A DNA stretch of 64,000 nt from Caldilineaceae bacterium (GTDB taxonomy: Bacteria > Chloroflexota > Anaerolineae > Caldilineales > Caldilineaceae). The first letter of the stretch is position 1, and every line of letters begins with the position of its first letter. Position numbers and translations under genes: made by a program. Of the stretch, positions 48,121-55,314 are shown piece by piece. A model generated the notes under the pieces. That model saw only the letters and a program-made list of their open reading frames with translations, ran no database searches and was not told where the DNA came from. Location of the stretch: contig JAJDTL010000004.1 of assembly GCA_022827195.1 (NCBI GenBank), positions 124,001 to 188,000 on the forward strand, read 5' to 3'.

Positions 48121-49770
48121 GTGAACACGCCTGAACGCCAGAGTCCAACCGAGCCACTCGACATCCAGCAGAAGACCGATGCAATCAGGTCCGGCGCCCG
48201 GCCGGTCGAAAGGGACTACCCCTACATTCCGCCCGACTACCGTGTGCCCTTCCTCCACATCGGCACCGAGCGCCAGCTCTTCCTCGACAACTTCATCCTC
48301 GACCACCTTGAAGGCGTACGCCGCGACGTTTGCGTTCCCGCCAAAACAGCCGAACCTCTGCTCGCCTGGTCCGACCTGCCGTGGGAGCAGGTGCAGTTCA
48401 ATCCCGGCACCGCCGGCGTCGTCCACGACCCCGACGACGGCCTCTTCAAAATGTGGTACTGGCAGGGTTTGACTGGACACGCTTTCAACGAGGGTCAAGT
48501 ACTCTGTTACGCTGAATCCAGGGACGCGCTCCGCTGGGAAAAGCCGCTGCGCGACGACTGCCTTCCCTTTGAGGGGCACAAGGCAACCAACATCGTCCAT
48601 CCGGACGTGTCCCAGTCCGGCTTGGCGCTCAACCATGACCGCAGCGACCCCGACCGCAAGTACCTGCTCGTAAACTGGCCGCCGAAAGCGGCGCGCGTTC
48701 GCCCTCCCGGCAGCCCCCGCCTCTCGCGCGTCGACGCCTCGCCCGACGGAATCCGCTGGCAGACGATCAGCGAGGAGAGTGCATTTCCACATCACCACGA
48801 ACAGAAGATATTCTGGGACGGGAGCATCCGGCGCTGGGTCGGCTTCAGCCAGTACTCGCATCACCAGAACTTTCTTTACCGAAAGCGTCAGATTGGCCGC
48901 CAGGAGAGCGCCGACTTCATCAACTGGTCGCCCAAGGAGGTCGCGCTTTCCGCCGACTGGGACGCCAACCTGCCGCCCGACCTCGAGATGCACGACATGT
49001 CGGCACGCAAGGTCGGGGGCCTCTATATCGGCATAACAAGCGAGTTCATGGCCGAGCCTTTCTGGCAGGAGCGAGACGGCCACAACTGGCGCGACCAGGC
49101 TTTCAGCCGCCTGGGTCTCTATACCAGCCGCGACGGCAGGCGCTGGCAGCGCGTGGGCGGCCCCGGTCCCTGGGTCGACACCGGCGATCCGGGAGACCAG
49201 GACTACGGGTTCGCGTGCTTCACACCCGCGGGGACGCTCGTACACGACGGTCGCATGGTGATCCCCTACAGCGCCAATCCGCAGAAGCAGAGCTGGCTGC
49301 ACCCCGGGCCGCCGACACCGCTCTATCCTCGCGAGGAGTTCGCGCGCCGGCAACAGGAATGGAGGGCGCGCGCGGCGATTCAGGGCGAGTCTGGAGTCCG
49401 GCGGGCGGTCAACGGCCTGATCCTGCGCGAAGACGGCTGGGCCCGTCTCGTCCCAGCCTACGAGTCCGGCCGGGTCCTAACCAAACAGTTCGTGTTCGAA
49501 GGGGACTCGCTGCGCGTCAATGCCGACTGCCGCTACGGATACGTCCGCGTCGAGCTCCTCGATCCCTGCTTCCAGCCGTACGATGGCTTCTCGGCGCAGC
49601 AGTGCGACCCGCTCATCGGGGCGGCGGACCAGATCTGGCACACGGTCCGCTGGCAGGGCGGAGGCGACCTGCGGACGCTGTGGGACAGACCGGTGAGGAT
49701 TCGGTTTCAAGTGCATGAGGCCAGCCTTTATTCTTTTCAGTTTCTCAATTCGGAAAATGATGTAGAATAG
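48121..49770 (+). CDS. Glycosidase-like five-bladed propeller protein (copy 1)
   Basis: 549 residues with a GTG start at 48121 (GGAGG about 12 nt upstream). IGTERQLFLDNFILDHLEGV and DPDDGLFKMWYWQG recall the large group of GH43/GH32-like propeller proteins common in planctomycetes and Chloroflexota. Conserved acidic residues occur in DNF, DPDDG and DASPDGIRW, and a C-terminal beta-rich module (REDGWARLVPAYESGRVLTK) follows. No signal peptide seen. It is a full-length paralogue of the protein at 53620-55314 and ends 46 bp before the candidate selenoprotein. Confidence 0.7.
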   Translation: MNTPERQSPTEPLDIQQKTDAIRSGARPVERDYPYIPPDYRVPFLHIGTERQLFLDNFILDHLEGVRRDVCVPAKTAEPLLAWSDLPWEQVQFNPGTAGVVHDPDDGLFKMWYWQGLTGHAFNEGQVLCYAESRDALRWEKPLRDDCLPFEGHKATNIVHPDVSQSGLALNHDRSDPDRKYLLVNWPPKAARVRPPGSPRLSRVDASPDGIRWQTISEESAFPHHHEQKIFWDGSIRRWVGFSQYSHHQNFLYRKRQIGRQESADFINWSPKEVALSADWDANLPPDLEMHDMSARKVGGLYIGITSEFMAEPFWQERDGHNWRDQAFSRLGLYTSRDGRRWQRVGGPGPWVDTGDPGDQDYGFACFTPAGTLVHDGRMVIPYSANPQKQSWLHPGPPTPLYPREEFARRQQEWRARAAIQGESGVRRAVNGLILREDGWARLVPAYESGRVLTKQFVFEGDSLRVNADCRYGYVRVELLDPCFQPYDGFSAQQCDPLIGAADQIWHTVRWQGGGDLRTLWDRPVRIRFQVHEASLYSFQFLNSENDVE

Positions 49771-49816
49771 GCGGAGACAGGACCTAATCGAGAATCCAAT
49801 TTGTAAGGAGCAATGT

Positions 49817-51460
49817 ATGGCCACAGATCTGCGCGTTCACAACCCGATGGGCTATCCGCCCCAGATTGACCAGAAGCATCTGGCGCCGCGTGTCAGCGAC
49901 CTGGCCGGGAAGACTGTCTACCTCGTCGACTGCCGCTTCGACGACGGCGACATCCTGGTTGAACAGATGGCGAACTGGTTTCGCGAGAACCGGCCCGACA
50001 TACAGATCGAAGTGCGGCGCAAGTCGGGCGTCTACACCGAGCGGGACGAAGCGCTCTATACGGAGATCCAGCGGAAGGGGGCAGGGGCCGTCATGGCCGT
50101 CGGCCATTGAAGTACCTGTGCGCCGGCGGTCGCCGACCAATGCATTATTCTGGAAACCGAGTACAACGTTGCCACGGCCTCCATCCAGACGGGGATCTTC
50201 GAGCCCCTGGTGAAGGCCTCCACCCTGCAGCAGGGGATCCCCTATCTGCGCCATGCCTTCGTGCCGCAGCCGGTCATGGGCCGCTCTCCCGAGCAGCTGC
50301 GCGCCTACGTCGACGGACCCGACGACATCACCGGCCGACCCTTCATGGGCGAGGTCATCGCCGCGCTCACGCGCGCGCCCTCGGCGGAGGAGACGCGCGC
50401 GCACGCCTTCGACCGCTCTACGCCCCGCTTTGTCGAGTCTGACAGTGAGGAGAATCTGCACCATCTCTTTGTGGACAATCGTTGGACCGACATGCTGCCG
50501 ATCATCCTGCCGACAGAGGAGCGGGTTGAGGCCATGTTGAAAGGGACCAGCCGCAGCCCGGACACGGTGGTGGGCCACATGCGGCCAACCTCGACGCGCG
50601 AAGCCTGGCAGTACACCGTTGAGAAAGTGGCGGTCAACGCGGTGATGGCCGGCGCCAGGCCCGAGTACCTGCCCGTGATCCTGGCCCTGGCCGCGACCTG
50701 CGCGTCGGCCCGTGCCAGCACAACAAGCTCGGCCGCGTCGATGGCGGTCGTCAACGGTCCCGTCCGCGAGGAGATTGGGATGAACTGGGGCATCGGCGCA
50801 ATGGGCCCGTACAATCACGCCAATGCCACGATCGGACGCGCCTATGGCCTGCTCTCGCAGAACCTGCAGGGCGGCTCGCTGCCCGAGGTGACCTATCTGG
50901 GTTCGCAGGGCAACAACTACGCCTACAACAGCGTCACCTTCGCCGAGAATGAAGAGCGCAGTCCGTGGGTGCCCTTCCACGTGCAGCACGGCTTCGAACC
51001 GGACCAGAGCGCGGTCAGCGTCTTCGGCGGCTGCCGGTCAACCGCGTTCAATCTCGGCCTGCGGGCGAAGCACTGGCAGGACCACGTGCGCAATATGCTG
51101 CGCGGCCTCAACCCGCACAACCCGCCGACGCTGGTGCTCGATCCCATCACGGCGCAGCAGTTCATCGACCGCGGCGGCTTCGACACCAAGGAGAAACTGA
51201 TCCAGTGGGTCCACGACAACGCCACCATGCCCTCGGGGATCTACTGGGACTACCAGCTGATCGAAAACTACGTCTACCCGCAGGCGCTCAACGGCGTCGA
51301 ACCGCATGCCAGCAAGCTCAGGGTGGACGCGGACGAGATGATTCCGGTCTACGAGCTTGACGACATCCACGTCGTCGTCGTCGGCGGTGAGACCAACGGC
51401 TACTGGCGCATCATGGGGTGCAACTACGGCGGAACTGTCTCTGTTGACGACTGGCGCTGA
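49817..51460 (+). CDS. Candidate selenoprotein with U-x-x-C motif (UGSC-like family)
   Basis: One continuous reading frame of 547 residues is interrupted only by TGA at codon 98 (50108-50110). ATG 49817 has AAGGAG 8 nt upstream. Before it: SGVYTERDEALYTEIQRKGA, GAVMAVGH. After it: STCAPAVADQCIILETEYNV, then 450 codons of conserved-looking sequence with no ribosome site for reinitiation. Reading UGA as selenocysteine gives U98-S-T-C101, like the redox motif of metagenomic UGSC selenoproteins. A stem-loop with apical GGUC lies 17 nt after the UGA, as in bacterial SECIS elements. The enzyme function is unknown; a thiol/selenol redox role is inferred. Alternative: a gene broken by a nonsense mutation. 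Confidence 0.75.
50111..50145 (+). promoter_or_regulatory. SECIS-like stem-loop after the in-frame UGA
   Basis: CGGC (50124-50127) pairs with GCCG (50132-50135) around loop GGUC (50128-50131), starting 17 nt after the UGA. A lower helix GUGC/GCAU (50118-50121 with 50142-50145) can close it. The apical GGU and the distance match the E. coli fdhF-type SelB-binding hairpin. Confidence 0.55.
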
Positions 51461-53619: not shown

Positions 53620-55314
53620 ATGGCCGAAGGCGATGTGCATCTTGCTCCAGAAGCGCGAAGCGAGACCGAACTCGTCGACACGAACCGGGCGATGGAGGAG
53701 ACCTGGGCGGGTGAGCGGCCCGTGGAGCCCCGCACCTACCCCTATTTCAATCCGCCCTACCGCCTCCCATTCAAGCATATCGGCAGGCAAAAGCAACTCT
53801 TCCTCGACAACTACATTCTGGATGAACTGATCGATGCGGAGCGGATCATCGTGAGGCCGGACAAGGCGGCGTCCCCTCTCATCGCGTACGAGGACCTGCC
53901 CTGGGAGCGCTACCACTTCACCTGTGTCCCGGCGGCGGCCCTGTACGACCCGGACGACGGTCTCTACAAGATGTGGTACAAAACGCTGGTGAGCGGCAAC
54001 ACGAACTCGGCGCAAGGGACCGAGGTCGTGCTTTGTTACGCCGAATCGGCCGACGCGCTGCAGTGGCACAAGCCGATGCGCGACGACTGTCAGCCGTTCG
54101 CGGACCAGCAGCGGACGAATATCGTCATGCGCGACTTCGACAACGGCACCATTGTTCTCAATCAGGACAGGAGCGACCCGTCGCGTAAGTTCCTGGCCGT
54201 CTACAACCCATCGATGGAGGCCGTCCGCCGCGGCAATCGCGTCATGTCGCGCGTCGCCGCCTCGCCGGACGGGATCTGCTGGCGGGTGATAAGCGACGAC
54301 ACGCCCTTCCGCCATCACCATCAGATGCGCGTCATCTGGGACGATGCCTGCGGCATGTGGGTCGGTTACTCGCAGGCCTCGCACGCGTTCGCCAGCCACC
54401 TGCACATCCGCACGATCGGCCGCCAGGAGAGCGTCGATTTCATCAACTGGTCGCCCAAACAGGTCATCCTTTCGGGCGACTGGGACCCCGGCGTCGGCCC
54501 CAACGTCGAGCTCCACACGATGTCCGTGCGCAAGGAAGGGGGGCTTTACATCGGCATCGTCGAGGAGGCGCACGGCGAGCACCAATGGCTGGTGAATCGC
54601 GACGGCAGCAACCAGCGCGATCAGTTCCATGTAAAAGCCGCCCTGTACGCCAGCCGCGACGGGCATCGCTTCTTTCGCGCCGACGGCTACCGGCCCTGGG
54701 CGGACAACGGGCCGCCCGGCAGCCAGGACTACGGCTACCTGGCCCACACCGTATCCGACTACCTGCTGCGTGACGGCAGAATGGTGATCGCGTACTCCGC
54801 CTTTCCGCACAAGCAGCGCGACACGAGGCCCGCCGGCGTCTCCAACCATGCGCCCGCGGCGTCATCCCGGGCTTCCCGCAATCACATCGAGGAGCTGAGC
54901 AGCCACGGGATGGGCAGTCCGATGATGGACAAGGTTCGGCGGGAGGCGCCTGCGCAACGCGGCATCGGAGGCCTCGTGCTGCGCGAGGACGGCTGGGCCG
55001 CACTTCGTCCCAAGTATGAGTTGGGTCAGGTCGTTACGAAGCAGTTTGTATTCGAAGGCGACGTGCTGCGGGTCAACGCCGACTGCGCCTATGGCTCGCT
55101 GCGCGTCGCGCTGCTCGATTCCGAACTCAATCCATATCCCGGCTTCAGCCTGGAACAGTCGGTCCCGCTGCACGCGCCGTCTTCGCAGATCTGGCATACG
55201 GCGGCCTGGGAAGGCGGGCCAGATTTGCGTCAACTGTGGAACAGGCCCGTGCGGGTCCAGTTCTCGTTGCTCGAGTCCACTCTATATGGCTTCCAGTTTC
55301 AGGCGCGGTCCTGA
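53620..55314 (+). CDS. Glycosidase-like five-bladed propeller protein (copy 2)
   Basis: 564 residues, GGGAGG before ATG 53620. Clearly homologous to copy 1 throughout: IGRQKQLFLDNYILDELIDA, DPDDGLYKMWYKTLVSG, REDGWAALRPKYELGQVVTK. Conserved Asp/Glu residues in the DNY and DPDDG segments would be catalytic or sugar-binding if it is a glycosidase. No signal peptide. Followed after 20 bp by a six-hairpin glycosidase-like protein. The shared domain content with copy 1 shows that the locus arose partly by duplication. Confidence 0.7.
   Translation: MAEGDVHLAPEARSETELVDTNRAMEETWAGERPVEPRTYPYFNPPYRLPFKHIGRQKQLFLDNYILDELIDAERIIVRPDKAASPLIAYEDLPWERYHFTCVPAAALYDPDDGLYKMWYKTLVSGNTNSAQGTEVVLCYAESADALQWHKPMRDDCQPFADQQRTNIVMRDFDNGTIVLNQDRSDPSRKFLAVYNPSMEAVRRGNRVMSRVAASPDGICWRVISDDTPFRHHHQMRVIWDDACGMWVGYSQASHAFASHLHIRTIGRQESVDFINWSPKQVILSGDWDPGVGPNVELHTMSVRKEGGLYIGIVEEAHGEHQWLVNRDGSNQRDQFHVKAALYASRDGHRFFRADGYRPWADNGPPGSQDYGYLAHTVSDYLLRDGRMVIAYSAFPHKQRDTRPAGVSNHAPAASSRASRNHIEELSSHGMGSPMMDKVRREAPAQRGIGGLVLREDGWAALRPKYELGQVVTKQFVFEGDVLRVNADCAYGSLRVALLDSELNPYPGFSLEQSVPLHAPSSQIWHTAAWEGGPDLRQLWNRPVRVQFSLLESTLYGFQFQARS

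Follow-up and report, generated by a model that had tools for sequence, protein, structure and literature searches.

A Caldilineaceae gene with an in-frame UGA is predicted to encode a selenoprotein of the UGSC family with a GrdB/PrdB-like Sec domain

The window analysed here is a stretch of 64,000 nucleotides from a Caldilineaceae bacterium (assembly GCA_022827195.1, contig JAJDTL010000004.1, positions 124,001 to 188,000 of the forward strand), the genome of which measures 5.2 Mb and is 97% complete. The gene under study, whose nearest named relatives are found in Caldilineaceae (Chloroflexota), starts at ATG 49817 and runs over 97 sense codons to a TGA at 50108-50110, and from there over 449 sense codons to the stop TGA at 51458-51460. 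These coordinates confirm the initial annotation, in which two coding stretches of 97 and 449 codons were placed in one frame with a single TGA between them. The features of the gene, all on the + strand, are as follows:

49805..49810, +, AAGGAG ribosome-binding site, seen in the sequence 6 nt 5' of the ATG
49817..51460, +, complete gene including the stop, 547 predicted residues, codon 98 being UGA; supported by full-length homologues
49835..50311, +, UGSC domain, GrdB/PrdB-like Sec domain, residues 7-165; PF24696 match (E 9.9e-16), GRDB profile match, model of alternating beta-alpha units
50108..50110, +, predicted Sec codon UGA, residue 98; Cys in 48/48 spanning proteins among the best 120 listed, TGA in 17/17 spanning loci
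50117..50119, +, Cys101 of the U-S-T-C motif, predicted to act as the resolving thiol; Cys in 32/32 motif-selected UGSC sequences, Sec+3 Cys in 29/32 GRDB sequences
50124..50135, +, likely bSECIS apical hairpin CGGC-GGUC-GCCG, loop 17 nt past the UGA; synonymous-site conservation, same place in relatives, agreement with the published limits for distance, loop and stem
50402..51457, +, C-terminal domain, residues 196-547, without Pfam family; relatives without UGSC domain, alignment of 79 sequences

In Caldilineaceae the gene lies in a conserved block of neighbours. The order is a Gfo/Idh-like oxidoreductase (assigned by eye), an HpcH-like aldolase, a kelch protein, a PhyH dioxygenase, a protein of 549 aa, the selenoprotein gene and a second PhyH, with a PIG-L deacetylase further on; the second PhyH comes after the gene in 14 of the 15 named Caldilineaceae loci. 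The gene is flanked in this block by two paralogous proteins of 549 aa and 564 aa (window 48121-49770 and 53620-55314), both without Pfam hit. The predicted functions of these neighbours hint at the catabolism or modification of small molecules. At the loci L039-L041 and L045-L048, where the flanks are partly short, the block neighbours were not found beside the gene.

When searching for relatives of the joined protein, 7979 proteins fell under the E-value limit, and the best 120 of these were examined for residue 98. The residue is spanned by 48 of the 120 and is Cys in every one of them, within the motif CSTC (46/48) or CSSC (2/48). The other 72 begin past the site, between residues 104 and 144, which is what one would expect of gene callers that start after an internal stop; the splitting of the gene by standard gene callers had indeed been anticipated in the initial annotation. 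Among the matches listed, these downstream-only database proteins have a length of 404-444 aa, and the full-length Cys relatives one of 544-562 aa. Both halves of the frame are coding, since an alignment with 19 full-length Cys proteins covers the joined protein from one end to the other. Given the Cys that 48 full-length relatives have at the position of the UGA, we predict that the gene encodes one selenoprotein, although gene finders would split it at the internal UGA.

We also examined the site at the DNA level. Among 18 loci from named genomes, the 17 Chloroflexota loci that span the site all carry TGA; in the 18th the match is confined to the C-terminal domain. In addition, 199 genomes of the class were searched and 11 contained a match, with TGA in each of the 14 matches spanning residue 98 (the window's own included; two of the 14, in G007 and G009, are probably the same records as L031 and L036). 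As other assemblies also have TGA at each of their 17 spanning loci, a read error at this codon, which had been named as a possible refutation, is refuted.

All four selA, selB, selC and selD genes, which had been suggested as a test of the selenoprotein reading, are present in the same genome. The tRNA-Sec gene (selC) scores 67.6 bits and is reported by ARAGORN as SeC(tca). SelA matches with 548 bits over two stretches, SelB with 288 bits, and SelD with 332 bits, the last with an internal UGA in the motif ACAGUASK. SelB was above the cut-off in 29 of the 31 genomes searched, the window's own among them. The reading as a candidate selenoprotein is thus supported by the Cys homologues, the kept TGA and the complete sel set. 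With its UGA, selD (L021:1501-2487 (-), which is contig C12:21917-22903) is a second selenoprotein of this genome. A thioredoxin-family match with one TGA inside (G000:C45:19264-19539 (-)) is a candidate for a further one, and such TGA-holding matches of the thioredoxin family also occur in many of the 21 genomes searched.

The initial annotation had placed a stem with an apical GGUC at 17 nt after the UGA. A hairpin with a GGUC loop does exist, but it is the loop that begins at 17 nt, and the stem begins after 13 nt. With a distance of 17 nt, a GGUC loop and a stem of 4 bp, the hairpin lies within the published bSECIS limits (loop 16-37 nt past the UGA and with G within its first two positions, stem no shorter than 4 bp). 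Folding of the 81-nt region did not differ significantly from that of shuffled sequences (z = +0.43). Moreover, 51% of synonymous recodings of the hairpin stretch form an equally good hairpin and 18% one with a GG loop, so that in this comparison the hairpin is no better than chance. It is the comparative data on synonymous sites, rather than the folding, that make the region significant. Across the window and 15 Caldilineaceae loci (16 sequences in all), synonymous change in codons 102-109 amounts to 3% versus 34% over the whole gene, the lowest value of 541 eight-codon windows. When the same codons were compared with two distant loci, synonymous change was 1% versus 46%, again the lowest, here of 433 windows. 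L039 and L040, for instance, share without change a 19-nt stretch that includes the hairpin, at a protein identity of 63-64%. In distant paralogues the hairpin is kept while the letters of the stem differ, as in UCGUGGA-GUC-UCCACGA of L053.

We then counted such hairpins at 31 UGSC-type TGA sites, which were chosen by motif, include one that is not a site of the family (L048:3219) and are not independent of each other. In the form defined at the outset (loop 13-30 nt past the UGA), a hairpin is found at 29 of the 31 sites versus 36% of 5425 control codons, the two sites without it being L063 and L048:3219. By the published limits the numbers are 31 of 31 versus 59% of control codons, and when at least three G-C pairs are demanded in addition, 30 of 31 versus 33%. 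The hairpin just 3' of the UGA is likely a SECIS that helps the insertion of Sec.

Two other readings of the UGA were considered. If it were an ordinary stop, translation would yield two polypeptides, with the second beginning at GTG 50210 or at some other start past the UGA; the gene might also be in decay. The in-frame GTG 50210 opens a frame of 416 aa, which among the matches listed resembles the closest database relatives in length, and the downstream proteins of 404-444 aa could be taken in the same sense. However, the TGA is kept at all 17 spanning loci, the residues flanking it are kept, the silent sites past it are frozen and the Cys homologues read through the position, which makes this reading very improbable. 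Still less credible is that UGA 98 is read as another amino acid, for example Trp or Gly, by a suppressor or an altered code. Nothing was found in favour of this: the aligned residue is Cys in all 48 spanning proteins among the best 120 listed, the full sel set is present and the final stop of the gene is also a TGA.

Regarding family membership, residues 7-165 match PF24696 (UGSC) with 58.8 bits against a gathering cut-off of 25, so the label of a UGSC-type protein, given earlier from the motif, is right by Pfam. The NCBIfam equivalog NF041046 scores 43.5 bits, under its cut-off of 125, and the literal U-G-S-C motif is absent from the protein, which has U-S-T-C in its place. The protein thus shares the Sec-domain family and the U/C-x-x-C motif with the UGSC proteins, but owing to the low NF041046 score it represents a divergent branch and is a member of PF24696 only. 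Among the matches listed, some relatives with 60-75% identity already bear the NCBI name 'UGSC family (seleno)protein'. The proposal that U-S-T-C marks a new subgroup can be refined: the protein does not stand alone, but represents the Sec version of a branch with CSTC and CSSC members, several of which NCBI already names UGSC family.

The passages available from the 2008 GOS survey (PMC2398784) give 255 UGSC sequences and report a fusion of UGSC with a domain called Unknown_1. Like the protein described here, this fusion combines, as far as those passages go, a UGSC domain with a second conserved domain of no assigned function, and our C-terminal domain is possibly Unknown_1 itself. In the excerpted part of a later survey, UGSC accounts for 8.2% of the selenoprotein genes.

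To compare the Sec domain with other families, UGSC and GRDB profiles of 32 sequences each were aligned with hhalign. GRDB stands for the family of GrdB and PrdB, selenoprotein B of glycine, betaine and D-proline reductase (PF07355). It had been chosen as a candidate by its motif before the comparison was made, and the E-values given are those of single comparisons. The two profiles match with E 8.8e-9 and a score of 62, with Sec aligned on Sec. Against six GrdB-like sequences alone the result was similar (E 4.1e-9, score 62), and with these removed from GRDB (26 left) the match was still E 5.2e-7 with a score of 51. The GRDB sequences were taken from DNA beyond the end of the PF07355 match, because PF07355 and the database protein P0243 stop at about the Sec codon. 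This GrdB protein (P0243, encoded at L064:1-1137 (-)), the one that was compared with its DNA, breaks off where the DNA has the Sec codon, and the PF07355 matches also stop there. Of the 120 GrdB relatives listed (P0243-P0362), 112 have a length of 346-351 aa and probably end at the Sec codon as well.

As a control, 200 column shuffles of the GRDB profiles (2 x 100) scored at most 23.4 and reversed columns at most 19.8. Twelve other families, including SelB and the N-terminal part of GRDB, reached at most 21.9 against UGSC; with thioredoxin (18.6) and GrdE (25.9) added, the maximum for 14 control families is 25.9. The weaker matches were those to GrdE (E 0.008) and to the N-terminal part of GRDB (E 0.015). 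GRDB itself reached 26.9 against the same 12 families, with the unrelated kelch. PF07355 as such does not match the protein, which is a remote relative and not a member of that family, and its profile was not found in the window's genome; PF07355-family loci were detected in 4 of 60 genomes of the class and 36 of 201 of the phylum.

Alternatively, the protein may be a UGSC selenoprotein in which a Rossmann-like fold with a Sec loop came to resemble GrdB/PrdB by convergence around that loop. The alignment spans 76-96 columns only, with 20% identity, and the PDB matches of the predicted structure are common Rossmann-like folds. However, when the four motif columns were masked, the UGSC-GRDB scores were still 46 and 42 (E 3e-6 and 1e-5), above all UGSC controls and shuffles (at most 25.9). 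We therefore regard convergence as quite unlikely.

The second AlphaFold2 model (79 sequences; all models were built with Cys at 98) has a mean pLDDT of 85 and a pTM of 0.86. Its strands 33-38, 63-68, 90-96, 120-125 and 146-149 alternate with helices, and residue 98 is placed between strand 90-96 and helix 101-114. A Foldseek search with the models gave no PDB match at E <= 0.001. A thioredoxin-fold thiol oxidoreductase, as suggested for UGSC in the passages of the 2008 paper (PMC2398784), with the C-terminal domain as its redox partner, seems unlikely. It is true that UxxC looks like CxxC and that the Sec-x-x-Cys spacing is shared with thioredoxin-like selenoproteins, but a profile of 22 thioredoxins (PF00085) scores only 18.6 over 8 columns, which is the motif alone, and the predicted fold, in which beta-alpha units follow one another and residue 98 comes directly behind strand 90-96, would differ from that of thioredoxin. 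The view of the site as a U/CxxC redox motif is too simple, as the profile comparison points to GrdB/PrdB, and not to thioredoxin, as kin. Passages of the open literature that name UGSC contained no reference to a kinship with GrdB, and no link between UGSC and the Rossmann fold was found in the open literature. The kinship of the Sec domain with GrdB/PrdB is thus the new point here, while the UGSC name of some near relatives and a fusion of UGSC with another domain had been reported before.

Residues 196-547 have no Pfam match. Nine residues of this C-terminal domain (W223, D225, N274, N323, N336, R341, N349, E377 and W384) are invariant in 79 of 79 aligned sequences. Compared with the GrdE/PrdA profile, the domain scored 16, meaning no similarity. 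GrdB/PrdB and the protein studied here share a homologous Sec domain by profile, and mostly the Cys at Sec+3, but the former work with a pyruvoyl partner (GrdE/PrdA, PF09338), whereas no such partner was found in the C-terminal domain fused to the latter, which by profile is unrelated to GrdE/PrdA.

The C-terminal domain occurs fused to UGSC, as here, and also without it. In at least three genomes (G029, G065 and that of L041), a thioredoxin-like domain is fused to the C-terminal domain and the gene adjoins a separate short UGSC Sec gene; the loci with this arrangement are L041, L050/L056 and L052/L055. The three fused thioredoxin-like parts match thioredoxin by profile comparison (E 1.2e-8), and one of them, in L052, has CPTS in place of CxxC. 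In G207, too, a short UGSC gene adjoins a match to the C-terminal domain. The two domains being fused in one lineage and encoded by neighbouring genes in another argues that they would work together. Fused paralogues in G109 and G092 have N-termini that by eye resemble lipoprotein or export signals. One genome (L061, L062, L059 and L063; contigs C69 and C272) contains a cluster of several paralogues of UGSC and of the C-terminal domain, some of which begin like a lipoprotein.

Taken together, we propose, with a probability of about 0.68, that the gene encodes a single selenoprotein of 547 residues through UGA 98 and a likely SECIS, with a Sec domain matching that of GrdB/PrdB and with Sec98 likely serving as a nucleophile towards a substrate that the C-terminal domain would hold. 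The profile match to the GrdB/PrdB Sec domain suggests an enzyme that attacks a bound small molecule rather than a plain thioredoxin. In the mechanism proposed for PrdB, as given in passages of PMC3091704, the pyruvoyl partner holds the substrate, whose alpha carbon is attacked by Sec, a PrdB cysteine then cleaves the selenoether to leave Se-S, and an electron carrier reduces this bond; in glycine reductase, according to the same passages, thioredoxin is the reductant. Excerpts of PMC13188914 provide a further source for this analogy. From the PrdB/GrdB mechanism, the Cys at Sec+3, the C-terminal domain with its invariant residues and the thioredoxin-fused genes beside separate UGSC genes, we infer a Sec reductase recharged by thioredoxin. 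The Sec98 selenolate would attack a small organic substrate, which the C-terminal domain could hold; Cys101 would release the product, leaving a Se-S bond, and a thioredoxin-like protein would reduce this bond and so recharge the enzyme.

An extension to the whole UGSC family is put forward tentatively, with less than even confidence. On this view the family might be a branch not yet recognised within the glycine/proline reductase superfamily, in which a selenium nucleophile would cleave a carbon-heteroatom bond of its substrate, a new catalytic domain would present that substrate in place of the pyruvoyl subunit and thioredoxin would recharge the enzyme.

In ocean and freshwater surveys, UGSC proteins belong to the selenoproteins met with most often, and their function is unassigned; database entries of the Sec forms tend to start past the Sec codon, as do 72 of the 120 listed. 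With the kinship to GrdB/PrdB and the adjoining thioredoxin-fused partner, an 'unknown redox protein' becomes a testable enzyme hypothesis. Selenium-dependent reductive cleavage is known from amino-acid-fermenting clostridia, and our analysis suggests that a counterpart of it may be more widespread, in Chloroflexota and further environmental bacteria.

Two further observations were made among the Chloroflexota loci. Short proteins of the GRDB family with UPxC, UGLC or UGIC, and in some cases CPLC, occur in a number of Chloroflexota genomes (L065, L066, L067 and L074-L097). L067 also contains a candidate selenoprotein, a frame (...LLCAUPDEATSARAAQTL...) that is rhodanese-like by eye and whose active-site loop holds an in-frame TGA.
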